A stretch of DNA of 20,555 bases from a virus. A program made the translations under genes and the position numbers. Below, one piece after another: positions 2,299 to 16,736 of this stretch. The stretch is taken from the IMG/VR virus record IMGVR_UViG_3300011116_000607, positions 1 through 20,555 of that record, one strand, 5' to 3'. Positions within the stretch are counted from its first letter, which is position 1. Every line of letters starts with the position of its first letter. A model generated the notes under the pieces. That model ran no database searches. It was not told the origin of the DNA and saw nothing but the letters and a program-made list of their open reading frames with translations.

Positions 2299-3350
2299 GC
2301 CAAAACCAAATCAGGTTGTTTGACCTCTTTCGGTATTACCAACGCGGGTTGCCGCATCAGATGGCCGCGATCAGTGAGCTTGAGGAGGCAATTAACAAAG
2401 CCAATCCGAACATCCTTGGCCGCGACCAAAGCTGGTTCAAGACGTGGAGCCAAAGCGGCAAACAACCTGAGCGTGATCTGCAACCCGCTGTTGACCTAAT
2501 CAAAAAGTGGGAGGGACTACGGCTGGAAAGTTATATCTGTCCGGCTGGTGTACCCACGATTGGTTATGGCCATACGGGTCAAAATGTCCAGATGGGCATG
2601 AAGATCACAGAGGCTGACGCCGAGGCGCTGTTGCTGTCTGATCTTGAGAAATTTGCCCGTGCTGTTGATACGCAAATTCGTGTACCGCTGACCAATAACC
2701 AGCGTTGTGCGTTGATCAGTTTTGCGTTCAATGTGGGCACTGGTGCATTGATGGAGAGCACGCTGCGTAAGCGGCTGAACAATGGCGAAGACCCGCAGAA
2801 AGTGGCAATGGAGGAGCTGCCACGGTGGAATAAAGGCGATGGCAAAGTTCTGGAAGGGCTGGTACGTCGCCGTCGTGATGAGCTGGATTTGTTCTTAAAT
2901 GGCGCCAAGCCTGTGACCACGGACGTAGTTTTTACACCCGATAAACCATTTAGCTTTGCTGTAACGCCAAACGTTAAATATGGCGAGCTGGCATTAAACG
3001 AAGAGGCGCGTCGTTTTAATAAGCAATTTCAGTGCGATACCGCCATGGTTCTTTGTCAGTTCCTTGAGCGGGCACGGAAGGCATTTGGCGACAAACCCAT
3101 CGTGATCACGAGCGGATATCGCCCTCCGAAAATTAATGCCAGTGTTGGCGGCTCTCCAATGAGCGAACATCTTTTTGATTTACCGGATACAGGGGCTATT
3201 GACTGGCTTATTGAAGGCGTTGATATTTACACGCTTCAAAATTGGTGTTTAACTCATTGGCCTTACAGTACCGGGAAAGGCGCGCCAAAAGGTTTTATAC
3301 ATACCGGAGTGCGTCCGGGCAGGCCAAAAGTGGTGTGGAATTACGGTTGA
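2295..3350 (+). CDS. Endolysin: GH24 lysozyme fused to M15-type peptidase domain
   Basis: A 351-residue, probably bifunctional peptidoglycan hydrolase. Residues 1-60 are an unrecognised N-terminal region. Residues about 62-202 are a T4/P22-type lysozyme: the catalytic spacing E73-8-C82-5-T88 is present in KKWEGL...YICPAGVPTIGYGHTG, followed by NQRCALISFAFNVGTG and a basic RRRRDELDLF end. Residues about 208-351 look like a zinc D-Ala-D-Ala carboxypeptidase (M15): SGYR at 273-276, SEH with H292, D303 in AIDW, and H336 in FIHTGVR give the expected H...D...H zinc set. There is an insertion between H292 and D303 relative to the usual SxHxxGxAxD. It follows two small membrane proteins, as in a lysis cassette. 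There is no signal peptide, so it would need a holin. Confidence 0.88.
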   Translation: MSQNQIRLFDLFRYYQRGLPHQMAAISELEEAINKANPNILGRDQSWFKTWSQSGKQPERDLQPAVDLIKKWEGLRLESYICPAGVPTIGYGHTGQNVQMGMKITEADAEALLLSDLEKFARAVDTQIRVPLTNNQRCALISFAFNVGTGALMESTLRKRLNNGEDPQKVAMEELPRWNKGDGKVLEGLVRRRRDELDLFLNGAKPVTTDVVFTPDKPFSFAVTPNVKYGELALNEEARRFNKQFQCDTAMVLCQFLERARKAFGDKPIVITSGYRPPKINASVGGSPMSEHLFDLPDTGAIDWLIEGVDIYTLQNWCLTHWPYSTGKGAPKGFIHTGVRPGRPKVVWNYG

Positions 3351-3793
3351 CGCCATCGCTTGTAATTAGTCTCTCGGCAACGTTCGCGCTGGGCTTCAAG
3401 TTTTGCTGGATCCAAAAACCAAGCCGTGCCGTGTTTTACCAAATCTTTGATGTTTTCTTTTCTGCTATCCCATCGAAGATTATTAAGACTATTGTTGGCC
3501 GGATTGCCGTCGTTGTGGCAGGCGTCGTGTTGTGGACTTGGCCTGTTTCCTATAAATGTTTCCAAAACAAGGACATGAACCCTTTTATGGGTGATTCGCC
3601 CGACATCGTAAAAAGATACCAAAAAATATCCGCCGGATCCCTGACGCGGCTTCATCAACTTGCCCTTGAGTTTATACAAACCTCTTGAGTTTTTAATTGT
3701 TCGATCAAGACTCCTAACGCGTCCCATATTGGACACTTCATACAAGCCCTCGTAACCGACAACGGGGCGCCAAAGCTCTACGATGCTTGTCAT
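3341..3793 (-). CDS. HNH homing-type endonuclease with NUMOD4 domain
   Basis: A 150-residue free-standing nuclease. The N-terminus has the NUMOD4 signature: W8, then VVGYEGLYEVSNMGRVRSLD. It is followed by a HNH core of the phage type: HKRVHVLVLETFIG, then HDACHNDGNPANNSLNNLRW, in which H and N residues form the beta-beta-alpha metal site, and then SRKENIKDLVKHG. Such genes are mobile and insert between phage genes. It lies on the strand opposite to the lysin and deaminase genes and its 3' end overlaps the lysin stop by 10 bases, in keeping with insertion. The C-terminal RERCRETNYKRWRQP is basic and may bind DNA. Confidence 0.9.
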   Translation of the reverse strand: MTSIVELWRPVVGYEGLYEVSNMGRVRSLDRTIKNSRGLYKLKGKLMKPRQGSGGYFLVSFYDVGRITHKRVHVLVLETFIGNRPSPQHDACHNDGNPANNSLNNLRWDSRKENIKDLVKHGTAWFLDPAKLEAQRERCRETNYKRWRQP

Positions 3794-6212: not shown

Positions 6213-6342
6213 TAACTATCGGGCAGTTGCTTTGTTGATAGCGAATAAACGGCTGCAGCGCAGCGTACATACGGGCACAGTGGTCAATCGTGTGGTCGTT
6301 AAATCGCGGCGCCCAGTATTCGGCCAGGCACGATTCAAGCAC
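6187..6342 (-). CDS. Small protein of unknown function
   Basis: 51 residues from GTG at 6342 (VLESCLAEYWAPRFNDHTID...), which overlaps the upstream stop by 8 bases. A TTG at 6396 gives 69 residues but overlaps by 62 bases. It has a helical core with CLAEYW and HCARMYAALQPFIRYQQ. It overlaps the next gene by 26 bases. No family is recognised; the start is uncertain. Confidence 0.45.
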   Translation of the reverse strand: MLESCLAEYWAPRFNDHTIDHCARMYAALQPFIRYQQSNCPIVNDANQGHP

Positions 6343-6670
6343 GCTCTTGATTTCGCCTAAACAGGCTGCATTCGGTGGCGTAGGTTGGCTCGTCAATGGC
6401 TTCAGGGAATCCGTAAAAACATTCCTGACCGTCCCATTCCACGCAACTTTGGCAAGTGGTTAGGTTGCGGTCAATGCGGCTGCCCCTGAGGCGTACAGGA
6501 ATACGCGGCAGGTCTGGGGCAACGTGCGTGTAGCTTTTGCCGTTGCGAACAAGAGAAATGGCCTGCCGAGTTACATTCAACTGCGCCGCTAGAACCGCAT
6601 TTGGCTCCTTTGATTGCAGGATAAAAAGAACGTCGGCAGGCGTAAGTTTGTGGCTGTTAGTTCGCGCCAT
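6335..6670 (-). CDS. HTH plus four-Cys module protein, putative DNA-binding
   Basis: 111 residues from ATG. Residues about 8-48 (LTPADVLFILQSKEPNAVLA, QLNVTRQAISLVRNGKSY) form a helix-turn-helix of the short type found beside HNH nucleases and in phage regulators. Residues about 70-105 read TCQSCVEWDGQECFYGFPEA, then Y and C-x-LF: a CxxC...C...C module shared with the protein at 5149-5529. This suggests an HTH plus zinc-finger DNA-binding protein, possibly a regulator. It overlaps the previous gene by 14 bases. Target unknown. Confidence 0.7.
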   Translation of the reverse strand: MARTNSHKLTPADVLFILQSKEPNAVLAAQLNVTRQAISLVRNGKSYTHVAPDLPRIPVRLRGSRIDRNLTTCQSCVEWDGQECFYGFPEAIDEPTYATECSLFRRNQERA

Positions 6671-7403: not shown

Positions 7404-7649
7404 GTGCTATGCGCCAACCCAATGGACCATGACGCCTGGGAGTGGATGCAGTTAAAACCCGATCCCACCTCCGCCTTCAACATCGAGAAAGAAGCCCGAC
7501 GCCTGGAACAAACTCCAAACGCCGGGCCAATCGCCGCTCAACTTTTTAGGGCATGGAACATGCAGCAAACGCTGCTGCAGCAGGCCACCAACAGAATTGC
7601 AGCGTTAGAGCTGCAGGTGATGGAACACGAGCGTCAGGCGGGCACCTGA
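7404..7649 (+). CDS. Small coiled-coil protein; true start uncertain
   Basis: 81 residues from GTG 7404, but the same frame is open from 7317 and reads like protein before the GTG (KLKKRLVAILDAIAGGSVD), with no ATG, GTG or TTG. The real N-terminus is therefore unclear: a rare start codon, a frameshift from the ATG at 7321, or an indel. The visible part contains EKEARRLEQTP, FRAWNMQQTLLQQATNRIAA and LELQVMEHERQ, a likely C-terminal coiled coil. It is the only plus-strand gene between 5.0 and 14.4 kb. Its end overlaps the convergent HTH gene by 16 bases. Function unknown. Confidence 0.6.
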   Translation: MLCANPMDHDAWEWMQLKPDPTSAFNIEKEARRLEQTPNAGPIAAQLFRAWNMQQTLLQQATNRIAALELQVMEHERQAGT

Positions 7650-7966
7650 ATGTCTTTCCACGTCTTCCCGTATTTGATCAGGTTAACGGTGGTGACATGT
7701 ACGCCGTAATCTTTGGCGATGCGAGCGGCTGATTCATTGCCAGCGGCAAGACGCTTTTTGATTTCAGCCACTTGGCCGGCGTTGAGCATCACGCGACGTG
7801 CGCGACCCTTGCGTTTTTTGACCACCGGTTGAGGCGTTGCCGCTTCGGTCACGGTCTTGGGCTGCGCTGGGGTGGCCTTGATGACCTGGGCGCTGTCGAT
7901 GATGCGCTGAATCTGGCCGATGCGATTGGTCAGTTCAACGAGTTGGGAATCAGTAAGGATGATCAT
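7634..7966 (-). CDS. Helix-turn-helix DNA-binding protein
   Basis: 110 residues. Residues 1-28 form a charged helix (DSQLVELTNRIGQIQRIIDS); 30-60 are a Pro/Lys/Arg-rich linker with KKRKGRARR. Residues about 60-106 are a helix-turn-helix: LNAGQVAEIKKRLAAGNESA, RIAKDYGVHVTTVNLIKYGK, TWKDI. The TWKDI-type ending after the recognition helix is typical of HTH modules beside HNH nucleases and resembles the HTH at 6335-6670. Probably a regulator of early genes; the target is not visible. Confidence 0.7.
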   Translation of the reverse strand: MIILTDSQLVELTNRIGQIQRIIDSAQVIKATPAQPKTVTEAATPQPVVKKRKGRARRVMLNAGQVAEIKKRLAAGNESAARIAKDYGVHVTTVNLIKYGKTWKDIQVPA

Positions 7967-7974
7967 GAAACGAA

Positions 7975-8256
7975 TCAGAAAAGGTCAGTTTCGGCTTTGG
8001 GGCGTTGCTCGCTGATGGCCAACTTGAGATACTCACGACCAGAAGATTCAGCAGTGCGAGGCATCAGGTTGGCGCGAAGCTTTACGCAGGCTTCACCGCG
8101 TTGGTTTTGCACGGGGTCTTGCTTGAGCGCCCAGTTGTAGAGCTTCTCAAGTTCTTCCACCGGAATTTCGGCGGCAGCCCAGTAGTGCCCGTCTTTCTTT
8201 TGATCGGGCATACAGTTAAACCAAAGGGTAAACTCGTTCTTGGGATAATCAACCAT
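7975..8256 (-). CDS. Small protein of unknown function in recombination operon
   Basis: 93 residues from ATG 8256, which overlaps the upstream stop by 8 bases; a TTG at 8265 is also possible. The sequence alternates beta-like (NEFTLWFNCMP, ACVKLRANLMP, EYLKLAISEQ) and helical (PVEELEKLYNWALKQ) parts. A small ssDNA-binding OB-like fold is possible given the annealing protein upstream, but no clear motif supports it. Treated as unknown. Confidence 0.6.
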   Translation of the reverse strand: MVDYPKNEFTLWFNCMPDQKKDGHYWAAAEIPVEELEKLYNWALKQDPVQNQRGEACVKLRANLMPRTAESSGREYLKLAISEQRPKAETDLF

Positions 8257-8431
8257 GGGTGGCAAAGAAAGTGGTGATGATGTGGCGAAGAGCTTGATTG
8301 ATGTTCTGGCCTGATTTGGCGCAGTACGACCGAAGCTGTTGATGCAGATCAGCCGTAAGTTTTGCAGCTACAACGAACTGGTTTTTCCTACGGTTGATTT
8401 CAGCGGGTGATTTGGGCTTTCGCGCCCTCAT
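8249..8431 (-). CDS. Ribbon-helix-helix-like DNA-binding protein
   Basis: 60 residues. After a basic start (MRARKPKSPAEINRRKNQ) comes FVVAAKLTADLHQQLRSYCA, KSGQNINQALRHIITTFF: a beta strand, a helix, a turn and a second helix in the order of Arc/CopG ribbon-helix-helix repressors. The length fits. It is coupled by short overlaps to the annealing protein and to the next gene. It is a candidate to bind the palindromes in this window, which is speculation. Confidence 0.6.
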   Translation of the reverse strand: MRARKPKSPAEINRRKNQFVVAAKLTADLHQQLRSYCAKSGQNINQALRHIITTFFATHG

Positions 8432-9195
8432 GGGTTCTCAGCGATGTACTTGTCGATGAACTCCTTGTGTTCAGGGAACTGAATACGGTCAGCGATACGC
8501 GGGGCAATGATTTTGAAATGCTTTTTGAAAGCGGTGATCAATTCATCGCGTTTTTCGTATGCCTTGACCGCTGCCTTGACCTCATCCAGTTGGTCATCGG
8601 TCAGGAAAACGACCTTTGACTCTTTGGGTGCTGAGGTTTTGGCGGGTTTGGGCTTGGCTTCCGCCTGAACTTCCCGCAGTTGGGACACTGGCGCTTTGGG
8701 TTCCTCCTGTTGAATAGGCGGCTTGCCAGTTTCGCGGTACGGGTTCTCTAGCGGCTCCCGCGCCCAGAGTTGCCAGCCAAGGCCAAACTGAGCAGCAGCA
8801 GCAGTGCAGAGGCAGCGGCGATGCGCGTCTGTGAGATCACGGGCTGTGACCTTTTCAAACGGAATCGCGTTATTGCGGTTGTCCATAACCGCCTGAGGGA
8901 AATAGGGCGTGTCGCTGCCGTTGACGTGTTCAAAGCACCCGACCACATAAGCGGTTCCGTCGGGAGCCTTCCAAACGTGGCCTGTGTCTGGACTAATTTT
9001 GAGCGCAAATTGCCAGCCAGGCGCATGATCATGGAGGAGGTGAGATACACGGCACCAGTTGACGTAATCAGCGGCGTAAGAGCCAGCGCCCTTGGTTGAT
9101 ACGTCGGCCTGAGTGATCACACCCCCGAGGTTGGGGTAATCGGTCATGAAAGAGCGTGCGTGGGTAATCGGTTGAGGACGGGGCTTCGGACCCAT
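8428..9195 (-). CDS. Single-strand annealing protein, DUF1071/Rad52-like
   Basis: 255 residues from ATG 9195; ATG 9147 (MTDYPNLGG...) gives 239. It probably anneals complementary single strands in phage recombination. Conserved phrases of the DUF1071 family: SYAADYVNWCRVSHLLHD (39-56), GTAYVVGCFEH (80-90), QAVMDNRNNAI (101-111), TDAHRRCL (122-129), FGLGWQLWAREPLENPY (137-153). After a Pro/Glu/Lys-rich linker (about 155-190) comes a helical tail (LTDDQLDEVKAAVKAYEKRD) that may bind a partner such as SSB. The promoter just upstream puts transcription start at about the first ATG, so a leaderless start or the second Met are both possible. RusA and an exonuclease are in nearby minus-strand operons. 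Confidence 0.78.
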   Translation of the reverse strand: MGPKPRPQPITHARSFMTDYPNLGGVITQADVSTKGAGSYAADYVNWCRVSHLLHDHAPGWQFALKISPDTGHVWKAPDGTAYVVGCFEHVNGSDTPYFPQAVMDNRNNAIPFEKVTARDLTDAHRRCLCTAAAAQFGLGWQLWAREPLENPYRETGKPPIQQEEPKAPVSQLREVQAEAKPKPAKTSAPKESKVVFLTDDQLDEVKAAVKAYEKRDELITAFKKHFKIIAPRIADRIQFPEHKEFIDKYIAENP

Positions 9196-9228
9196 AGGGA
9201 GTATACCCCTAAATTCAAGGGACTGCAA
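9196..9228 (-). promoter_or_regulatory. Sigma70-type promoter with near-palindromic site (copy 1)
   Basis: On the minus strand TTGCAG (9223-9228), 17 bases, then TATACT (9200-9205). The -10 lies inside GGGGTATACTCCC, a near-palindrome. The 20-bp plus-strand form, AGGGAGTATACCCCTAAATT (9196-9215), matches the copy at 11032-11051 at 19 of 20 positions. It overlaps the 3' end of the gene at 9215 and should drive the annealing-protein operon. The palindrome over the -10 suggests repressor or activator control. Confidence 0.72.
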
Positions 9229-9958
9229 CCCAGTGGAATCCAGCGGCCTTAATGCCAAATTTCACGGCCTTGAAAATCCCAGACCGTGTGACATACACGC
9301 TTTTGCCGGCCTCACCCATGCTGTTGAACACCTTGCCCGTTTCTACGCACTTGACCCGTTGAGCGCCCTTGCCGCAACCGTACCAACGGTCGGGATATTG
9401 GCTCAAAATCTTGTCTACCCATTTCTCGTCTTCCAGCAGACAGAACAGACCAAAGCGATTTGTGCCGCCCAATACCTCTGGCCGCTTCCTTGCAAAACGC
9501 CGAAATGACCGCCGGCAAACGTAATGCCGTGAGCCTAGCTTGTTTGATTTGCGGTAGGTCTCAAGCCCAAGCTGGCGCCAGTTGTCCACCGCATCACGCG
9601 AGACGCCAAGCAAGTTGGCAATTTTTTGCATCGACAGGTATTCAATTTCAGGTTCCAAGCTGTAACCCAGCTCGTATGCTTTCAACCTGATTGCTGTATC
9701 AGATCGTTTTGGCAGGCCACGGGTGCTGGCCATGATCAAATACGTGTTGATGAATTGATTGGGCGGCATCGTTGAAATCAACTCGTGAATGATGCCAACC
9801 TCCTCATCACTCCATGTGGCACGGCGTTGAACGTGTAACCGGCGCTGGCAAGTATTGCCGCAGGTTTTGCGTGGGCTTTGTCTGCCCTGAGTCATGATCG
9901 GAATTTTGAATTTGGTGCCACAAACAATGCACTCGCGGAAATACTTGGATCCTTTCAC
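9215..9958 (-). CDS. Modular DNA-binding protein (zinc ribbon, HTH, NUMOD1-like), no nuclease core
   Basis: 247 residues. Residues 10-40 carry a Cys4 site (CIVCGTKF...KTCGNTCQRR) like that near phage HNH nucleases. Residues 46-105 (TWSDEEVGIIHELI...SDTAIRLKAYELGY) resemble a Myb/SANT-like helical domain. Residues 107-140 (LSMQKIANLLGVSRDAVDNW) are a MerR/XRE-like HTH. The end, CVETGKVFNSMGEAGKSVYV, TRSGIFKAV...AGFHW, is a NUMOD1-type DNA-binding repeat. There is no HNH or GIY-YIG motif, so it looks like homing-endonuclease DNA-binding modules without the nuclease, used as a regulator or left as a remnant. It overlaps the RusA gene by 4 bases. Confidence 0.65.
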   Translation of the reverse strand: MKGSKYFRECIVCGTKFKIPIMTQGRQSPRKTCGNTCQRRLHVQRRATWSDEEVGIIHELISTMPPNQFINTYLIMASTRGLPKRSDTAIRLKAYELGYSLEPEIEYLSMQKIANLLGVSRDAVDNWRQLGLETYRKSNKLGSRHYVCRRSFRRFARKRPEVLGGTNRFGLFCLLEDEKWVDKILSQYPDRWYGCGKGAQRVKCVETGKVFNSMGEAGKSVYVTRSGIFKAVKFGIKAAGFHWVAVP

Positions 9959-10365
9959 AGTGGGCTGATGTTGATGAGTGCTCCGGGGAGTTCGCCTTCG
10001 TTGGCGTATTGCTTACAGCAGATCAGATTGACAACCTGTGAGTCGTCTTTTATCAACACCATTGTCAACGCGTCAAGGGTGGAACGCACCAACTTGTCAA
10101 GGTCCGGTTTGGTTGACTTGTACAGCGGCGCAACGGGTTTGAGCTGACCTTTGCTGTTGTAGTGGGACTTCGGACGGGTGAACAAAAAAGTGATCTGGAT
10201 AAAGACCGGTCTATCGGTCATGGGCTTGTTCAGCTCCAACGCGGCCTGGCTGACGGCGTAGCGCCATGGCTTGACCTTCGTTGATGCCTCCACCATGCGG
10301 CCATTACCGACGTGGCGTTTACTGCCCTGCGGGGCTGGCTCAATTCCTAGGACGTTGAATTTCAT
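9955..10365 (-). CDS. rusA: RusA-family Holliday junction resolvase
   Basis: 136 residues from ATG 10365, which overlaps the upstream stop as ATGA; a TTG-led form reaches 10386. RusA cuts four-way DNA junctions with a dimer of small subunits. Conserved features: GIEPAPQGSKRH (7-18), the beta-strand FIQITFLFTRPK (55-66), KPDLDKLVRSTLDAL (86-100) with D88, D90 and D98, and LIKDDSQV (104-111) with D107/D108. These are the acidic metal-binding residues and the family length is right. It fits with the annealing protein and exonuclease as a recombination and branch-clearing set before packaging. Confidence 0.88.
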   Translation of the reverse strand: MKFNVLGIEPAPQGSKRHVGNGRMVEASTKVKPWRYAVSQAALELNKPMTDRPVFIQITFLFTRPKSHYNSKGQLKPVAPLYKSTKPDLDKLVRSTLDALTMVLIKDDSQVVNLICCKQYANEGELPGALINISPL

Positions 10366-10502
10366 TGGTATGAATTGCTGTAGCAACGCTCTAGGTAATT
10401 CACTGGCGAGCCGACATTGACCTTGACTACATCAGGTCGGGTTGACAGCAGCCAGAGCAAAAAGCGCGTGAACAGGCTCAGCTCATAGGGGTTGTGGGTC
10501 AT
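10362..10502 (-). CDS. 46-residue microprotein upstream of rusA
   Basis: ATG at 10502 to TGA 10362-10364. It starts MTHNPYELSLFTRFLLWLLS and ends NYLERCYSNSYQ. It fills what would otherwise be a 100-base gap between rusA and the gene at 10483. Its stop overlaps the rusA ATG as ATGA and its start lies 20 bases inside the previous gene, both in keeping with the spacing of this operon. Residues 9-19 are hydrophobic (LFTRFLLWLL) and may be an amphipathic helix. No family is recognised. Confidence 0.55.
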   Translation of the reverse strand: MTHNPYELSLFTRFLLWLLSTRPDVVKVNVGSPVNYLERCYSNSYQ

Positions 10503-10704
10503 CGGTTTCGTGGTTGAAGCATTTTTCAAGGTGGAGTTTTTCGGTCAGCCGTTGGTGGTACAGGCTGCGTTTGATTTGCCGGTTGCTCAAGGTCAACAGA
10601 TAAGTGGTGAGTTCGGCCACGGCGTCTCTGTATTGGTCGGGGTCCAGTAGGTCGTACTTGCCGAGGATGGCTTCAATACGATCGTCCACTGGAGTGCCGG
10701 CCAT
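10483..10704 (-). CDS. Small helical protein of unknown function
   Basis: 73 residues from ATG 10704 (MAGTPVDDRIEAILGKYDLL...), whose A follows directly from the upstream TGA (TGATG); a longer frame reaches 10737. Mostly helical (DPDQYRDAVAELTTYLLTLS, RQIKRSLYHQRLTEKLHLEK). No motif or family is recognised. Confidence 0.58.
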   Translation of the reverse strand: MAGTPVDDRIEAILGKYDLLDPDQYRDAVAELTTYLLTLSNRQIKRSLYHQRLTEKLHLEKCFNHETDDPQPL

Positions 10705-11012
10705 CAGAACTCTGCCTTTGGCAGCGAAATCCTCCAATATTCTGTTTCCTTCTTTGTGGCTACACCCTCAAACTGCTCTAGTTGCTGCAGCTCCTTGACG
10801 GCCTTGCTGTATTGCCAACTTGTGCGGGTGCAGCGTGTGATTTTGATGCCTTCGTGAGCAAGGTTGCCGTCTTCGTCCTTGATAGCGTCCAAATCGCCAG
10901 AGGCATAGAGCGCGGCCATGTCGTCCATGAGGGCGCGCAATTTTTCCTCTTGATAGGCAATTTCCAGCTTGACGCTGGCAATGTCAAACAGAACTCGTGC
11001 GTGGTCGGTCAT
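10704..11012 (-). CDS. Small coiled-coil protein of unknown function
   Basis: 102 residues. The N-terminal half is a long charged helix (ASVKLEIAYQEEKLRALMDD), the middle has EDGNLAHEGIKITRCTRTSW, and the end has AVKELQQLEQFEGVATKKE and WRISLPK. It resembles in layout small phage proteins whose N-terminal helix precedes a beta hairpin, but I cannot name the family. It is the first gene after promoter copy 2, with a leader of about 17 bases. Confidence 0.6.
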   Translation of the reverse strand: MTDHARVLFDIASVKLEIAYQEEKLRALMDDMAALYASGDLDAIKDEDGNLAHEGIKITRCTRTSWQYSKAVKELQQLEQFEGVATKKETEYWRISLPKAEF

Positions 11013-11031
11013 GCGTGGAGCATCGCTGCAC

Positions 11032-11065
11032 AGGGAGTATACCCCTAAGTTCTGGGCACCGTCAA
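11032..11065 (-). promoter_or_regulatory. Sigma70-type promoter with near-palindromic site (copy 2)
   Basis: On the minus strand TTGACG (11060-11065), 18 bases, then TATACT (11036-11041): five of six consensus positions in each box. The -10 lies in the same GGGGTATACTCCC near-palindrome as copy 1. The plus-strand form is AGGGAGTATACCCCTAAGTT (11032-11051). The TGA that ends the 30-residue gene at 11062 falls within the -35 box. It should drive the operon from 11012 downward, including rusA. Confidence 0.75.
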
Positions 11066-11154
11066 CCCCTTGTTCCGACCCAAGCCACCAGCACCATCAC
11101 GCCCAGCAACCCAACGCTGATCAGCACCATCACCGGCCACACCGGATCCGTCAC
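11062..11154 (-). CDS. 30-residue single-pass membrane microprotein
   Basis: Starts with GTG at 11154, which overlaps the methyltransferase TGA (GTGA), and ends with TGA at 11062-11064. After MTDPVWP the sequence VMVLISVGLLGVMVLVAWVG is a single transmembrane helix, then TRG. It is shorter than most gene finders report. The exact stop/start coupling and clean hydrophobic helix support it; a chance frame cannot be excluded. Function unknown. Confidence 0.45.
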   Translation of the reverse strand: MTDPVWPVMVLISVGLLGVMVLVAWVGTRG

Positions 11155-11894
11155 CTCAGCGCCTCCAGTTCCAGAACCCGCCGCAAAGGGATGGCGGCAA
11201 CCTGTGGTACTACCGAATTACCTAGGGCTCTAATGCGGTCCACCCGATTGGATAACCCATCATTTCCTCTATGAAGGACGGGTTTAGATATGTAGCCCCG
11301 CCATGCTGGGCTGAGCACTGCGTTACCAGGATTCCAGCGAGCCGGCTTTTCTTTGCCAGTTTTTCGTAATTCACCTTCTCCCCCGAATCCTTGTGGTCCC
11401 TCGCTGTTGGGGTAGGCAACAAGCCACCACCGGTCACGCTTATGGCAGGCTCCCAAATCCGAAGCGCGTATGCACGCCCATTCACAGTCGTACCCTGCTT
11501 CGGCCAATTCTCCGAGTACAACTCCGAGTCCATTAGCAACGATTGCTGCGACATTTTCCATGACGACGTATTTGGGTCGTACCAAGCGAATGACACGGAT
11601 GAGTTCATAAAAAAGTCCTGAGCGAGTTCCTTGTTTGATACCGGCTTGCTTACCGGCAAAGCTAATGTCTTGGCACGGAAAGCCGCCGCAAATAACATCA
11701 GCGCTAAACGGTGCGGGTGCGTAGTTTTGAATGTCTGAATGGATGGCCACGGCTGGCCAGTGTTGGTTCAAGATCCTTTGGCAATAAGGATCCCATTCAA
11801 CAAATTGAACCGTCTCAAATCCACCAACGATTTTTTCTGCGGCGTAAGAAAATCCACCGATACCGGAAAATGTATCTAAAAGTTTTAGTGTCAT
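11151..11894 (-). CDS. DNA (cytosine-5-)-methyltransferase
   Basis: 247 residues from ATG 11894, which shares a base with the upstream TAA (TAATG); a longer frame reaches 11927. It transfers a methyl group from SAM to C5 of cytosine. Motif I FSGIGG at 9-14, EWDP at 33-36, motif IV GGFPCQDIS with catalytic C74, motif VI ENV at 113-115, motif VIII-like CHKRDRWWLVA at 150-160, and motif X RIRALGNSVVPQVA at 220-233. The target-recognition region (about 165-215) is short, so the protein is small for this class, as in many phage enzymes. It is coupled to a PD-(D/E)XK-like gene. It may protect phage DNA from host restriction. Confidence 0.92.
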   Translation of the reverse strand: MTLKLLDTFSGIGGFSYAAEKIVGGFETVQFVEWDPYCQRILNQHWPAVAIHSDIQNYAPAPFSADVICGGFPCQDISFAGKQAGIKQGTRSGLFYELIRVIRLVRPKYVVMENVAAIVANGLGVVLGELAEAGYDCEWACIRASDLGACHKRDRWWLVAYPNSEGPQGFGGEGELRKTGKEKPARWNPGNAVLSPAWRGYISKPVLHRGNDGLSNRVDRIRALGNSVVPQVAAIPLRRVLELEALR

Positions 11895-12493
11895 TATCGG
11901 TTCATTGCATTTGATGCATACCGCCAAGGCATGTCCACGGTGCCCGCTTTTATTTGTTTGATATGAGGATTATTGCGTGGGACCAAATAAACAAGCTCTT
12001 TCCCGTTGTTTTTCTTTTCCTTAACTGAATACCCAAGGCCACCGTTTTCAATATCGCAAAGCCAAATTTGGGCTTCTTGAATATTGATGTAATAAAAGCT
12101 GTCGTTAAATCCCCAGCAATAAAACAAATTGGTGATCAACGGTTTTCCGTTTTCGGCTTGAAAGTGAATCCCGTAATGAACCAATGCGTCTAATTTTTCG
12201 CAGGGAATCCACCAACCACGCTTGTATTGGTAGTCGTCGTGATTTCCGCCGCGTTTCTTGAATTCAAACAACGCTGTGATTTCGCCATTTACAGACTTAG
12301 CAGCAAAATCAATTTTACAATGTGGATCATCGCTAAACACTTCAATTTTGGTCCTGAACTCTTGTGATAACAAATAAATTGCACGCTTTTCATTTTCTGC
12401 ATCAACCTCATTGCGAGTGGTTCGCTTGCCATTGACGAGCGGATGGTTGCGATTTTTGTAATCGCTCATTTGAGTTGGCACAAAAAACGGCAT
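11894..12493 (-). CDS. Putative PD-(D/E)XK nuclease-like protein coupled to methyltransferase
   Basis: 199 residues; its ATG overlaps the upstream TGA (TGATG) and its TAA overlaps the methyltransferase ATG. Residues 31-46 (DAENEKRAIYLLSQEF) form the acidic helix often found before the core, then D62 in CKIDFAAKSVNGEITALFEF and K79 in EFKKR: a D-(14)-ExK pattern of the PD-(D/E)XK fold. Residues 84-115 (DDYQYKRGWWIPCEKLDALV) may be a later conserved part. It could be a restriction-like endonuclease paired with the methylase, or a housekeeping phage nuclease. No known family is recognised. Its codon and A+T content is higher than that of its neighbours, hinting at separate acquisition. Confidence 0.6.
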   Translation of the reverse strand: MPFFVPTQMSDYKNRNHPLVNGKRTTRNEVDAENEKRAIYLLSQEFRTKIEVFSDDPHCKIDFAAKSVNGEITALFEFKKRGGNHDDYQYKRGWWIPCEKLDALVHYGIHFQAENGKPLITNLFYCWGFNDSFYYINIQEAQIWLCDIENGGLGYSVKEKKNNGKELVYLVPRNNPHIKQIKAGTVDMPWRYASNAMNR

Positions 12494-13173
12494 CAGAACT
12501 CCGGCGAATTCAGCATGAGGAACGCATCACGAGCGCCCTGCCACTCGATCACAGCCTCGTCCACGTTTACTTTTTGCAAGCTTGTGATCCCTGGACGCGC
12601 CCACAGCACACCGGCCTTCTGCACATACATTTGCGGCCAGTGCAAACCCAGCATCCCTAGGTAGCCACCTAACTGCGGGCTCACGTCATATGGACTGGCA
12701 TCGGCCTTGCTCTGGGTCTTCAGATCAACCAACACGAGCTGGGTGTGGTCATCCTTGCGTCGCAGTAGGCAATCAAAGCTCCCGGCAATGCTGCGCTCCA
12801 CATCGCACAACCTGTATTCACAGGCAATGGCCTCATAGCTCTGCCAAACCGAGTGTTCCAGCAGCGGCTCAACCCATTCGGCGTATTCCTCGGGAAACTT
12901 CCCAGGATCACCAGTCGTCAGGAAGTTCTCCAGCGCCAAGTGAACGGCCTTCCCACGGGGTTCCCAAATGTGCTTGGTCTCCATGATCCGTTTCATCGCC
13001 CACACATCCTTCCTGCCCTTGCACACCTGCGTCACTGAATGGTTCAGCCATGTCCCCGTTGGCTCGTGGTAATAGCGGTGCGCCTCCTCGTTGAACAGGA
13101 TCGGCAGGGGCTTCAACCACCGCGAAGTCTCGGGGGCTGACGATTTCAACTCGTTCTGTTGGTGTGGGCTCAT
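12493..13173 (-). CDS. RecB/Cas4-like PD-(D/E)XK exonuclease
   Basis: 226 residues from ATG 13173. Probably a 5'-3' or ssDNA-generating exonuclease that supplies substrate for the annealing protein. Signature residues: RGKAVH at 73-78 (the GxxxH motif), E119 in ACEYR, D134 in AGSFD, D150-L-K152 in VLVDLKTQ, and Q167-L-G-G-Y171 (QxxxY). These are the PDDEXK_1 set. An upstream extension to 13335 lies in a different frame from the 13348 gene and looks less protein-like. It overlaps that gene by up to 266 bases (see findings). With the annealing protein and RusA it completes a recombination set. Confidence 0.82.
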   Translation of the reverse strand: MSPHQQNELKSSAPETSRWLKPLPILFNEEAHRYYHEPTGTWLNHSVTQVCKGRKDVWAMKRIMETKHIWEPRGKAVHLALENFLTTGDPGKFPEEYAEWVEPLLEHSVWQSYEAIACEYRLCDVERSIAGSFDCLLRRKDDHTQLVLVDLKTQSKADASPYDVSPQLGGYLGMLGLHWPQMYVQKAGVLWARPGITSLQKVNVDEAVIEWQGARDAFLMLNSPEF

Positions 13174-13348
13174 CTCTGAGAAGGTTGCGGTAAGGGCGGG
13201 GCGTAAAACCGGGAATACGCTTGGCGTCTTCCATTGTGATGACCCAGCCCTGTGACGGGATATCAAGGTCTTGCAGTGTCCAGTGTTTTGCGTCAATGCC
13301 ACGGCGTAATAAACGGCGAACTTCAACAAGATCAAAGGCTTGGTGCAT
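12908..13348 (-). CDS. Small conserved-looking protein whose frame runs into the exonuclease gene
   Basis: From ATG 13348, whose T is shared with the upstream TGA (TGATG), the first ~85 residues look like real protein: FDLVEVRRLLRRGIDAKHWT, LQDLDIPSQGW, then FTPRPYRNLLRDEPTP and RVEIVSPRDF. The DLDxPSxGW...YRNLLR pattern is one I have seen in small cyanophage proteins. The frame has no stop until 12908, and its last ~60 residues (GGAPLLPRANGDMAEPFSDA and onward) look like out-of-frame reading of the exonuclease. So either the overlap is real or an ancestral stop was lost or frameshifted. Function unknown. Confidence 0.45.
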   Translation of the reverse strand: MHQAFDLVEVRRLLRRGIDAKHWTLQDLDIPSQGWVITMEDAKRIPGFTPRPYRNLLRDEPTPTERVEIVSPRDFAVVEAPADPVQRGGAPLLPRANGDMAEPFSDAGVQGQEGCVGDETDHGDQAHLGTPWEGRSLGAGELPDDW

Positions 13349-13635
13349 CAGAACTCCCGCCACATCCGCTCTTTGTCCGATCTGTCGCGTTCCGCCGTGG
13401 CCATCGGATGCACGACGTACCGAGCGGCTAGCGGGCTCTTCGGATCATCAGCGCCCACATTCGGGCAGAAGGTCAGGTATAGACCCTGATCGTCGTATTT
13501 GCCGATTGGATGGCCGTAGCAGGCATCTGGTGGGGCGGTACGGGTCGTCGTCAAGCTGTAACTGACCTGACGGGTCTTTGAATCAGCCACCTGCCAGACG
13601 TACTTGCCTTTGGCTTCTGGTGAATAAAGCTTCAT
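13348..13635 (-). CDS. Small protein of unknown function
   Basis: 95 residues, from ATG five bases after the initiator gene's stop. It has beta-like stretches (GKYVWQVADSKTRQVSYSLT) and two Cys in CYGHPIGKYDD...FCPNVG, and a polar, charged end (ERDRSDKERMWREF). It is coupled to the next gene by TGATG. No family is recognised. Confidence 0.6.
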   Translation of the reverse strand: MKLYSPEAKGKYVWQVADSKTRQVSYSLTTTRTAPPDACYGHPIGKYDDQGLYLTFCPNVGADDPKSPLAARYVVHPMATAERDRSDKERMWREF

Positions 13636-13640
13636 GGTGA

Positions 13641-14243
13641 TTAGTCGTCGTGGACCCAGCAGCCAAGCTCAGCGTTCCAGACCGGACCGGCCTGCTGCTG
13701 CGTATGGCCTTCTAGGTAAACCTCGTACTTGCCGTCGCGGAGCCAGCGAAACAGGTCAGGAAGGCTGCCCACGAACTCGCCGGCGGTCTTCTTACGCTTC
13801 TGCTCGTCAATCGCCCTTCTGGCGGCTTCTAGGAGGGTCTCCGTGCCTTCAAGGGCAACGATGGCTCGCCACTCGTCAAATGCCTTTGGCTTCGTCTGAG
13901 ATGAGACACGATCAGGAGCCGACTGATACAGCTTCCAGAACTCGTTGAACTCGTCGCTGTAGGCCGGTCGCTTGGCCTTTTTCGGCTTTTCGGATTTTGA
14001 TTTTCCGACCGTTCTATTTATATTAGAAGAAATAGTTTCTTTAATAATAGAAGTATCAATAATATTATTAGAAGAAATAGAGGCTTCGCTTCCCTTCGGT
14101 CGCTCCGCCAGCGTAACCGGCCTGTCAACCCCTAACTCGATCAAAAAGGCGCAGTACCCAGTTAGGGACATGGTTTTCGGCTTGTAACGCTCTAAGTCAC
14201 AAACCAAATCGTCGGGTAAACGCAGAAAAATGGCCTTTGCCAT
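13641..14243 (-). CDS. Replication initiator/helicase loader-like protein
   Basis: 200 residues from ATG 14243; a TTG-led form reaches 14282. Residues 3-42 (AIFLRLPDDLVCDLERYKPK, TGYCAFLIELGVDR) look like a ribbon-helix-helix DNA-binding domain. Residues 50-98 are a Ser/Asn/Lys linker (SEASISSNNIIDTSIIKETI..., then KSEKPKKAKRP). Residues about 99-185 (YSDEFNEFWKLYQSAP, KAFDEWRAIVAL, SLPDLFRWLRDGKYE) match the C-terminal domain of phage replication proteins that recruit or load helicase. No phage helicase is in the window, so host DnaB may be recruited. Its linker DNA is an AT-rich island (see feature at 14011). Confidence 0.62.
   Translation of the reverse strand: MAKAIFLRLPDDLVCDLERYKPKTMSLTGYCAFLIELGVDRPVTLAERPKGSEASISSNNIIDTSIIKETISSNINRTVGKSKSEKPKKAKRPAYSDEFNEFWKLYQSAPDRVSSQTKPKAFDEWRAIVALEGTETLLEAARRAIDEQKRKKTAGEFVGSLPDLFRWLRDGKYEVYLEGHTQQQAGPVWNAELGCWVHDD
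14011..14085. other. AT-rich repeat island inside the initiator gene: candidate replication origin
   Basis: A ~75-base block of very high A+T content lies in otherwise GC-rich DNA. It holds a perfect 15-bp direct repeat, TATTAGAAGAAATAG at 14021-14035 and 14066-14080 (45-bp step), and a 12-bp palindrome, AATAATATTATT at 14058-14069. Beside it, at about 13978-14007, are spaced TTTTCGG/TTTTCCG runs. It encodes only the linker of the initiator. In lambdoid phages the origin sits inside the initiator gene at the same place between domains. Origin function here is inferred. Confidence 0.5.
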
Positions 14244-14465
14244 GGCTTGCAGGAATTTGCTCCTTGCGAAGATTGCTTGCAAAGGCTAGCGGTTTTTAGC
14301 TAGGGCGCAAGTGCCGTTTGCCACACTGCCGAAAGTCTTTCGATTTGCTTTTCCACGGGCAACAATCCAGCCCAGACCCGTCCCATATGTCCCAATCTGA
14401 GACGCCAGCCGCTCCATTCTTTACCTTTTGGGTTTATCCTGTTCGTATCATTTTTTCCCGCAAAC
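14244..14465. promoter_or_regulatory. Divergent control region between replication and packaging genes
   Basis: This ~220-base stretch separates the minus-strand replication operon (start 14243) from the plus-strand terminase genes (start 14466). It holds GCTTGCA repeated near 14245 and 14274, the inverted repeat CTAGC...GCTAG (14286-14290/14299-14303) and a 13-base palindrome CGAAAGTCTTTCG (14330-14342). Promoters in both directions are expected but no clear -35/-10 pair stands out. A minus-strand frame (14300-14509) crosses it. Confidence 0.45.
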
Positions 14466-14509
14466 TTGGCACGCTCAACTGCTGCCGAAGTCAACTTCCG
14501 TGTTGACAC
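14300..14509 (-). CDS. Doubtful ORF resembling an integrase arm-binding N-terminus
   Basis: 69 residues from GTG 14509. The start, TRKLTSAAVERAKFAGKND, then INPKGKEWSGWRLRLGH, loosely follows the pattern of the N-terminal arm-type DNA-binding domain of tyrosine integrases (KLTxxAVxxAK...W-RLR). No catalytic domain follows and the frame ends after about 70 residues. It overlaps the small-terminase start by 44 bases on the other strand. It may be a remnant, a small regulator or a chance frame. Confidence 0.25.
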   Translation of the reverse strand: MSTRKLTSAAVERAKFAGKNDTNRINPKGKEWSGWRLRLGHMGRVWAGLLPVEKQIERLSAVWQTALAP

Positions 14510-14783
14510 TATTTACGGTCTTTTGACCGAAGGACAATCACGTGGGCAGATCGTTCAATTCGCAGCGAATCAGTGGAAATGCTCAGCGCGCCAGGCCGAT
14601 GAATACATCCAACGCGCTCGTATCCGCCTAGAAGAAGACGCCGCCATGACCCGCCCCGCTTGGATCGCGGAAGCCCTTGGCCGTCTTCGGACCTACGAAC
14701 AGTCCGCCTACCGTCGCGGTCAAACACAGGTCGCCATCAATGCCGTGCAGCTCCAAGCCAAACTGATCGGCCTTGAAACTTGA
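14466..14783 (+). CDS. Terminase small subunit-like protein
   Basis: 105 residues from TTG 14466; the open frame extends upstream but holds no usual start. It probably recognises phage DNA for packaging. An HTH-like segment covers residues 12-47 (RVDTIYGLLTEGQSRGQIVQ, FAANQWKCSARQADEYIQRA), followed by helices (IRLEEDAAMTRPAWIAEALG, TQVAINAVQLQAKLIGLE). It is immediately upstream of the large subunit with a TTGA overlap, the usual place of the small subunit. Family assignment rests on fold pattern and position. Confidence 0.75.
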   Translation: MARSTAAEVNFRVDTIYGLLTEGQSRGQIVQFAANQWKCSARQADEYIQRARIRLEEDAAMTRPAWIAEALGRLRTYEQSAYRRGQTQVAINAVQLQAKLIGLET

Positions 14784-16120
14784 GCCTCCTAGCCAATGCT
14801 CCTGGCGGCTTTCTCCTTGACCCGCCAACCTCACAACAGACCGGGCCCACCAGCGACCAAGCCTTAGCCCGTATCCGGGAAACGCTGCTGCCACATCAGC
14901 TCGCCTTCTGCGACGACACCCAACACCGCAAACTCGCTCTGGTCTGTGGCTTCGGTGCCGGCAAGACCCATGGCCTCGTTGCCAAGGCCGTTCACATGGC
15001 CGCACTCAACATCGGCTACGTCTCAGCCCTGTTTGAACCGGTCGCCCCAATGCTGCGCGACATTCTGCAGCGCACGATGGATGACCTATTGGAAGCCTGG
15101 GAAATACCTTTTGATTTCCGCGTCAGCCCGCTTCCTGAATACACCCTGCATTTCGCTGAGGGCAGCCACACAATCCTTCTTCGCACCATGGAGACGTGGA
15201 ACCGGATTCGCGGCCAGAACCTCTGTGCCATTGGTTTTGACGAAGCGGACACCGCCAACAAGCGCGTAGCAGAACAGGCCACACGCATGGCCCTGGCCCG
15301 TCTTCGTGCTGGCAATGTGCAGCAGTTCTACGCCGCCACTACGCCTGAGGGTTACGGCTGGGCGTTCGACACCTTTGACCGCAATGCCGGTGATGACACC
15401 GCTCTGATCCGTGCTCGCACCATGGATAACCCGTTTCTGCCTGACGGGTTTGTGGACAGCCTGATGGCGAACTACCCGCCGCAGCTCATCAAGTCGTACC
15501 TAGAAGGCCAGTGGGTGAACCTCAATACCGGTCAGGTGTACGACCGCTTTGACCGCAGCAAGCACGTCGTCGCCACCGTTGCTGACTTCAATAACGAACC
15601 GCTGCGTGTGGGGGTTGACTTCAACGTTGGCAACATGTCCGCTGTGATTGGTGTACGCAGTGGCAACAGACTGACCATCGTTGACGAGATCAGTGGCGCG
15701 CATGACACCGACGCACTGGCGCAGGAGATCAAACGTCGTTATCCCGATCACCGTATTTACGTTTACCCTGACGCCTCAGGCGGCAATCGCTCCACCAACG
15801 CCTCCCGCACCGACATTCAGATTTTGGAGTCCTACGGCTTCAGTAATCAATCTGGGCGGTCTAACCCTGCTGTTCGGGATCGGGTGTCTGCTGTTCAGGC
15901 GCTGTTGGAGAACGGCAAGGGCGAAATCAGATTGACCGTGGCGCAGTGCTGCACGCGGTTGATCGAGTGCCTTGAGCTGCAAAGCTGGACGGAGAAAGGC
16001 GAGCCGGATAAGGAGGCCGGACACGATCACATGGTTGACGCGCTCGGCTATGTGGTGTGGCGTGAGTTCAACCCGCTGCAGGCCAACGCTGGACGGGGCA
16101 CGGGCATCAGGCTGTATTGA
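14780..16120 (+). CDS. terL: Terminase large subunit
   Basis: 446 residues, TTG start overlapping the small subunit's TGA. It is the ATPase/nuclease motor that packages DNA into the prohead. Walker A GFGAGKT at 57-63, adenine/coupling parts ALFEPVAPMLRDILQ (83-97), Walker B AIGFDEAD at 150-157, and motif III-like FYAATTPEGYG at 183-193. The C-terminal RNase H-like nuclease has RVGVDFNV with D280, VYPDASG with D331, and HDHMVDALGY with D416/D420. The length fits TerL. It ends with TGATG into the next gene. Family is sure; packaging type (cos or pac) cannot be read. Confidence 0.93.
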   Translation: MSLLANAPGGFLLDPPTSQQTGPTSDQALARIRETLLPHQLAFCDDTQHRKLALVCGFGAGKTHGLVAKAVHMAALNIGYVSALFEPVAPMLRDILQRTMDDLLEAWEIPFDFRVSPLPEYTLHFAEGSHTILLRTMETWNRIRGQNLCAIGFDEADTANKRVAEQATRMALARLRAGNVQQFYAATTPEGYGWAFDTFDRNAGDDTALIRARTMDNPFLPDGFVDSLMANYPPQLIKSYLEGQWVNLNTGQVYDRFDRSKHVVATVADFNNEPLRVGVDFNVGNMSAVIGVRSGNRLTIVDEISGAHDTDALAQEIKRRYPDHRIYVYPDASGGNRSTNASRTDIQILESYGFSNQSGRSNPAVRDRVSAVQALLENGKGEIRLTVAQCCTRLIECLELQSWTEKGEPDKEAGHDHMVDALGYVVWREFNPLQANAGRGTGIRLY

Positions 16121-16356
16121 TGGACCTACGGCACTATCCCAGTTATGCCGGGACGTATACGCCGCGTACTCGCCTGCGGTTCATGACGGTTGGGGCCGTG
16201 CGCTTGGCGCTTCATCACCGTGGTGGCTGGCTTGAAACCATCCGCGACAGTGAGCTTCCCGAATACGCCCCGCACCTCAGCCAAGACGAAACAGGTTGGC
16301 CGCATGGCATCTGGATCAGATCGGAGCTGCTGGCTTGGGCACACGACAATTTGTGA
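16120..16356 (+). CDS. Small protein of unknown function between terminase and portal
   Basis: 78 residues from ATG 16120 (shared base with the TerL TGA); the longer TTG-led form starts at 16117. Rich in aromatic and His residues: MDLRHYPSYAGTYTPRTRLR, then GGWLETIRDSELPEYAPHLS and WIRSELLAWAHDNL. No family is recognised. Its place between TerL and portal suggests a packaging or head accessory role. Confidence 0.55.
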   Translation: MDLRHYPSYAGTYTPRTRLRFMTVGAVRLALHHRGGWLETIRDSELPEYAPHLSQDETGWPHGIWIRSELLAWAHDNL

Positions 16357-16455
16357 ACTGCCCACGCGGGGTCTTGCCAGATGGCAGGGATATACCCCAT
16401 AATTAAGAGGTCAGGGGGCGACCCCACCACTCCCGGCACGACGCCGGCTCTTCAA
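16357..16455. promoter_or_regulatory. Intergenic region with third near-palindromic site and a plus-strand promoter candidate
   Basis: AGGGATATACCCCATAATT at 16386-16404 is a variant of the two motif copies at 9196 and 11032, one base shorter in the centre. Here the minus strand has no gene to drive. On the plus strand TTGCCA (16374-16379), 18 bases, then CATAAT (16398-16403) could form a promoter for the gene at 16456. The site spans the promoter candidate, so it could act as an operator. Confidence 0.55.
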
Positions 16456-16707
16456 ATGTTGGTTCTCTCCAAAACCGGCACTCCTTTCACCGAGGCTCAG
16501 CTTGACGCTGCCTTCAAAAAGGTTGCTGATCCCTCCGATTGGCGTAATCCCATCAACTACGCCGTGGTTGATCGTGACGATGTGCATGTCACTGTCTGCG
16601 CCATTCAGTACTACACCGCCGCTCCGGTGCAGGTGAAGGATCTGCAGTGGAATGACGAGTACATGATTTTTTCTCCCGGTTATCGGCTTGGCCCTGCTGG
16701 ATGCTGA
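16456..16707 (+). CDS. Small protein of unknown function
   Basis: 83 residues from ATG 16456 (MLVLSKTGTPFTEAQLDAAF...); a longer frame from 16381 would cover the regulatory site and is less likely. It has a helical start and a beta-rich second half (PINYAVVDRDDVHVTVCAIQ, YYTAAPVQVKDLQWNDEYM). It has its own candidate promoter and terminator, so it may be a separately regulated single-gene unit. No family is recognised. Confidence 0.55.
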   Translation: MLVLSKTGTPFTEAQLDAAFKKVADPSDWRNPINYAVVDRDDVHVTVCAIQYYTAAPVQVKDLQWNDEYMIFSPGYRLGPAGC

Positions 16708-16714
16708 ATAGACC

Positions 16715-16736
16715 GCCCCCTCCGGGGGGCTTTTTT
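16715..16736 (+). terminator. Rho-independent terminator
   Basis: GCCCCC (16715-16720) pairs with GGGGGC (16725-16730) around a four-base loop, followed by six Ts (16731-16736). It lies eight bases after the stop of the gene at 16456. This is the clearest terminator in the window and separates the terminase-side unit from the portal unit. Confidence 0.85.

Follow-up and report, generated by a model that had tools for sequence, protein, structure and literature searches.

A conserved palindromic site on three predicted phage promoters and a candidate ribbon-helix-helix repressor

The virus record IMGVR_UViG_3300011116_000607, analysed here over its whole length of 20,555 bases (the window), carries a short palindrome at three predicted sigma70-type promoters: one before the operon of a Sak-type single-strand annealing protein (unit 1), one before the operon of a 102-residue protein and rusA (unit 2) and one before a single small gene between the terminase and portal genes (unit 3). 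The near relatives of the phage all bear the site, nearly always at the same three places, and we judge it probable, if only by a little, that these form a phage regulon repressed by a small putative ribbon-helix-helix (RHH) protein encoded after sak. The regulon itself we take to be real and conserved, in a phage group for which our searches gave no isolate; our literature search for the site sequence found no earlier description and returned only unrelated papers, apparently with primers and the like.

The sites, their registers and their conservation

A preliminary description of this DNA had reported near-identical 20-mers at 9196-9215 (site 1) and 11032-11051 (site 2), and both are present as claimed; the 20-mer had no match in 100 dinucleotide shuffles of the window. 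The minus-strand promoters assigned to them, TTGCAG-17-TATACT at site 1 and TTGACG-18-TATACT at site 2, likewise have their hexamers at the spacing given, the latter being the top promoter-like match of our promoter scan; the scan lists the hexamers of sites 2 and 3, and those of site 1 were read from the sequence. The third copy that had been proposed does exist, but its best alignment has one substitution and no gap, with the 12-bp core GGGATATACCCC, and the plus-strand candidate TTGCCA-18-CATAAT lying across it is again listed by the scan (Table 1). In the window alone, 14-mers with at most three mismatches were found three times against 0.71 expected, which is only mildly unusual; the doubt over site 3 is removed because the relatives carry the site at this place, where they read GGGGTATACCCC.

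The palindrome stands in different registers to the promoters. In class A (sites 1 and 2) it contains the -10 hexamer TATACT and its centre is at about -10.5, whereas in class B (site 3) it is placed 7 bp upstream of that register, in the spacer between the hexamers, with its centre at about -17.5. The class B -10 is CATAAT, separated by exactly 18 bp from a TTGNCA-like hexamer in 26/26 unique sites; the spacer bases adjoining the palindrome vary among these, and the palindrome is constant.

The preliminary description had named a lack of conservation in relatives among the outcomes that would count against it, and the site is kept in every near relative. The pattern GGGTATACYC occurs in 25/25 clade records; counting variants such as GGGATATACTCC, nearly all have it at three places. 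The reversed control pattern has 0 matches in the same records. The places are constant: before the Sak operon, before the operon of the 102-residue protein and rusA, and in the interval from terminase to portal. In IMG/VR, the near relatives of the annealing gene all have TTTARGGGTATACTCC or a close form directly upstream, with TAGACA or TTGNNN 17 bp before TATACT. The 102-residue gene is directly preceded by the same promoter in about 17 relatives, and most of the others have a gene, often small and with a terminator, between the two. The terminase-portal interval of the relatives holds either TTGNCA-18-CATAAT, whose spacer contains GGGGTATACCCC, or a promoter of class A, TTGACN-17-TATACT. 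A de novo search for 12-bp palindromes ranked GGGGTATACTCC first, in 15/15 clade loci; it occurs twice in one contig in 7/15, and no other of the top 25 palindromes is repeated within a contig. Such conservation at orthologous promoters supports the earlier suggestion that a recurring, promoter-overlapping site marks a small regulon.

The 16-mer GGGTATACCCCATAAT fetched more than 40 further contigs with the same arrangement. Its carriers outside the clade were rejected as promoters, as the match lies mostly in a coding repeat of a tail-type gene (L281, L284, L293, L302, L306, L315-L317, L319 and L320), apparently a codon coincidence. Ten loci outside the clade, comprising eight matches of the 16-mer scan and two with a shorter core in a coding stretch, do not have the gene arrangement of the clade next to them and were put down to chance.

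The palindrome recurs, however, in a distant phage group (L036, L041, L045 and L047), which has a perfect GGGTATACCC before its rusA-sak region and, in 3/4 contigs, a second and opposite promoter-like place of the same sequence (1289-1298 and 4549-4558 in L041). With -10 positions that we assigned ourselves, the palindrome centres are at about -21.5 and -23.5. Exact copies of the group's first place were found only in its own contigs. A small leader hairpin follows each GGGTATACCC place in this group.

Because class B and the distant group carry the palindrome in other registers, the site is more than a -10 element and, as far as sequence can tell, is a binding site. The palindrome is shifted from the -10 by amounts that do not correspond to helical turns, and steric repression therefore suits the pattern better than activation by contact. 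The site would thus be an operator where RNA polymerase is kept out by a bound protein.

As for the phage itself, the annealing protein and the terminase of the window have relatives in Synechococcus and Prochlorococcus siphoviruses such as KBS-S-2A, S-H1, S-CBS1, S-CBS3 and MED4-184, the nearest in the phage records searched being less than 60% identical. Given these relatives, the host is presumably a cyanobacterium.

Table 1. Predicted elements and genes of the three units, with positions in the window
Feature	Position	Strand	Basis or remark
Promoter 1, -35 TTGCAG	9223-9228	-	17 bp from TATACT; hexamer equally spaced in relatives
Operator 1, GGGGTATACTCC (minus strand), -10 inside	9198-9209		Kept upstream of sak in all near relatives
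Promoter 1, -10 TATACT	9200-9205	-	Predicted start near 9193
Leader hairpin 1, 5'-terminal, GGGTCCGAAGCCC	9181-9193	-	Stem varies yet stays paired in relatives
Sak-type single-strand annealing protein, first gene of unit 1	8428-9147	-	Pfam SSAP_Sak E 4e-8; phrog_659
Small putative RHH protein, candidate repressor and second gene of unit 1	8249-8431	-	Directly after sak
Promoter 2, -35 TTGACG	11060-11065	-	Promoter scan and relatives
Operator 2, GGGGTATACTCC (minus strand), -10 inside	11034-11045
Promoter 2, -10 TATACT	11036-11041	-	Promoter scan; predicted start near 11029
Leader hairpin 2, 5'-terminal, GNRA, GCA-GCGA-TGC	11020-11029	-
102-residue protein, first gene of unit 2, leads to rusA	10704-11012	-	Start 11012
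rusA, unit 2	9955-10386		phrog_140 E 1e-32
Promoter 3, -35 TTGCCA	16374-16379	+	Promoter scan; class B spacing
Operator 3, GGGATATACCCC (GGGGTATACCCC in relatives), in the -35/-10 spacer	16387-16398
Promoter 3, -10 CATAAT	16398-16403	+	Promoter scan; predicted start near 16410
Leader hairpin 3, GGGG-GCGA-CCCC, GNRA loop	16414-16425	+
83-residue slot gene, unit 3	16456-16707	+	Start corrected from 16381
Intrinsic terminator closing single-gene unit 3	16715-16736	+

The candidate repressor and rival explanations

Three small proteins of the window had been named as possible regulators, the RHH protein at 8249 and two helix-turn-helix (HTH) proteins at 7634 and 6335. The RHH protein is found in both palindrome groups, the distant one having a diverged form at the same place (hhalign probability 96%, E 2e-9), whereas homologues of HTH7634 and HTH6335 are missing from the distant group; as the only one of the three candidates that the second group shares, the RHH protein is favoured. 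No clade contig covering the region is without its gene, which was found in 37 viral loci, and the motif is carried by 84/85 RHH loci, the single exception having GGGATATACTCC. Among solved structures, the best profile match is to the SvtR-like 2kel (E 9e-5); the protein also matches the Arc-like phrog_582 (E 0.0035) and Pfam Omega_Repress (E 0.0012), the latter with 19.5 bits and below the curated cut-off of 33.3. Neither the RHH protein nor HTH7634 had a match among annotated phages, and the RHH protein is not encoded by any isolate in the phage records searched. Scanning the genome collection with the RHH alignment gave no cyanobacterial match; the only match, a 25-residue stretch in a metagenome-assembled genome of Clostridia, was judged to be chance.

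In the mechanism that we infer, host RNA polymerase would fire all three promoters by default on entry. Unit 1 would then give the annealing-protein operon including the small RHH protein, unit 2 the recombination operon of the 102-residue protein and rusA, and unit 3 a single exchangeable small gene. The accumulating RHH protein would bind GGGGTATAC(C/T)CC as a dimer or a pair of dimers and exclude RNA polymerase, and the units, that of the RHH protein itself included, would go down later in infection. The hairpin and the C/A-rich leader would probably serve as an element of mRNA stability or translation, and the conserved block of promoter and leader may be a landing place at which small genes, often with a terminator of their own, are swapped between phages.

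Several observations weigh against the RHH protein as the binder. Its AlphaFold monomer is modest (predicted local distance difference test score, pLDDT, 71.5) and consists of two helices with no strand, and its structural matches, Arc and PutA included, are weak (Z up to 4.8). Phages without the palindrome also encode an RHH homologue, so the presence of the protein does not predict that of the site, and the beta-strand of these homologues is nearly identical to that of the distant palindrome group. The two palindrome groups are unlike in the residues predicted to face the DNA, V-A-A-K-L versus Q-C-R-L, which would be unexpected for proteins reading the same operator. Finally, the clade contigs are related, and the counts of co-occurrence are not independent.

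The sites may thus be true repressor operators that are read by some other protein, be it HTH 7634-7966, HTH 6335-6670, the NUMOD/HTH-like protein at 9215-9958 or a borrowed host factor. We consider this unlikely, though it deserves to be taken seriously: the three phage proteins are present in every motif-bearing clade contig covering their region and missing from the phages without the motif, and the two phage groups that have the palindrome may have hosts in common. If GGGGTATACYCC were enriched at promoters of cyanobacterial genomes, a borrowed host regulator would be favoured. Against this stand the absence of the HTH homologues from the second palindrome group and the size of the palindromes, which suits RHH dimers at least equally; MetJ and MatP are examples of RHH dimers on small palindromes.

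It is improbable that no regulator is involved and that GGGGTATACTCC is no more than the -10 of strong promoters, favoured by host RNA polymerase and inherited from a common ancestor. The palindrome does contain TATACT at sites 1 and 2, with a -35-like hexamer at 17-18 bp, but in class B a perfect palindrome that is not the -10 is kept while the adjoining spacer bases vary, the distant group carries the palindrome in two more positions and the reversed control never occurs. The class B arrangement, a palindrome within an 18-bp spacer between near-consensus hexamers, could in turn bring to mind an activator site, for example for a regulator that distorts an over-long spacer in the manner of MerR proteins; yet MerR-type promoters have spacers of 19-20 bp rather than 18, class A has the same palindrome on the -10 itself, and promoters this close to consensus should need no help, which together leave activation a poor prospect. 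Poorer still is the notion that the elements are recombination signals marking the junctions of gene cassettes, their overlap with promoters being secondary. Unrelated small genes do lie behind the same block in different phages, but the cassette has the element at just one of its ends, the gene driven by promoter 1 is sak in every case, and homology of promoter and leader suffices for exchange. An operator role confined to lysogeny or prophages was dropped because an integrase is found in 4/16 clade records while the site is in all; HTH_3 is also rare.

The protein at 9215-9958, 247 residues long and located between rusA and sak in all clade members, has zinc-knuckle-like cysteines, an HTH region and a NUMOD-like C-terminus. 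With those of the other members the window copy shares only about 40% identity, a sign that it may have been replaced recently.

Leader hairpins and exchangeable genes

From about +1 of each transcript, a short hairpin is predicted to form, often capped by a GNRA loop. The mean folding energy of the leader windows is -5.8 to -9.2 kcal/mol, compared with -0.2 to -1.6 kcal/mol in downstream windows and -3.2 to -5.3 kcal/mol in mononucleotide shuffles. When G-U pairs are counted, at least three pairs flanking the GNRA-type loops are kept in 81/82 leaders, the stems seen being GCA/TGC, GGCA/TGCC, GGGCA/TGCCC, GGGG/CCCC and GGGA/TCCC. In an alignment of leaders selected by their loop and not by their stem, from which one row without pairing was left out, 91% of the cells are paired across 23 distinct sequences, and the covariation score reaches 0.53, compared with 0.21 in shuffles, of which 0/500 scored as high. 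Behind the hairpin comes a C/A-rich leader that has no Shine-Dalgarno sequence. Stem-loops at the 5' end can act in mRNA stability or translation, and our guess is that these hairpins do one or the other.

The starts of two genes were corrected. We place that of the annealing protein at the ATG at 9147 because the preceding stretch is, in relatives, a leader whose length breaks the reading frame; that of the 83-residue gene of unit 3, which has no Pfam match, is given in Table 1. The first genes behind these promoters fall into 27 protein clusters, among them sak, the 102-residue protein, a 54-residue protein and about 20 unrelated small families, the last mostly between terminase and portal and many with a terminator directly after them. 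The 54-residue protein has a hydrophobic end (WIAAVSFCLGLLF) and is inserted between promoter 2 and the 102-residue gene in many relatives (for example, L054, L055, L064 and L068), usually with a terminator following it. Some phages have two tandem cassettes, and in several the same slot follows another terminase (30% identity). Judged by this gene content, small-gene families plug in behind two of the three promoters.

The large terminase is replaced by one of about 30% identity in L009, L014, L016 and others, with flanking genes 64-87% identical. The integrase of the clade, a tyrosine integrase, is found in records G004, G009, G010 and G011 (loci L009, L014, L015 and L016); the integrase-bearing records have the exchanged terminase where compared and are perhaps temperate members.

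More tentatively, the operator, promoter and hairpin leader may constitute a standard expression socket common to several cyanophage-like siphovirus lineages, serving the plug-in exchange of small, probably host-directed genes. If this is true, any small gene dropped in would come at once under the timing of the phage repressor. The roughly 20 exchanged families under the same control would then be good candidates for host-acting proteins, and with a three-site regulon and a candidate repressor in hand, the timing of genes in this phage group can be tested directly.

Relation to known systems and neighbouring genes

Operators on phage promoters are of a known kind; what appears new is the combination of one operator in several registers with GNRA-type leaders and exchangeable slots. 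Repressors of the Arc/Omega type provide the fold class suggested for the RHH protein by the matches to Omega_Repress and phrog_582 and by the weak structure matches, but the window operator differs from the sites of Arc and Omega. Unit 3 has the make-up of a moron, with a promoter, one small gene and a terminator between structural genes, and like morons its slot holds different genes in different phages. Here, however, the promoters share operator and leader with recombination operons, and the morons of unit 3 appear to join the phage's own regulon.

A parallel in protein type is SvtR (2kel), an autorepressor of the archaeal virus SIRV1 that, besides repressing its own promoter, binds a few more viral sites (PMC5569661). 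SvtR is a small viral RHH protein, as the window protein is predicted to be, but it has a different operator consensus from that of the putative window operators and acts on an archaeal promoter. The SAS and ESAS elements of cluster K mycobacteriophages are short conserved elements with inverted repeats before subsets of non-structural genes (PMC3203893) and resemble our sites in being kept across phages before different gene families. The SAS, however, is a 13-bp sequence (GGGATAGGAGCCC) in 11-19 copies tied to translation starts and the ESAS has 17-bp inverted repeats with a variable spacer, whereas the window has about three copies of a 12-bp palindrome fixed on a sigma70-type promoter, with a separate RNA hairpin. 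The window sites thus differ from SAS and ESAS in sequence, number and position, and do not belong with them.

Elsewhere in the window, a C5 cytosine methyltransferase and a neighbouring 199-residue gene (11151-12493) form a possible restriction-modification or protection pair, which only few relatives carry; the methyltransferase DNA is 76% identical to that of S-H1. A NUMOD4/HNH homing-endonuclease-like gene (3341-3793) adjoins the lysis gene and is present in only four of the compared loci.

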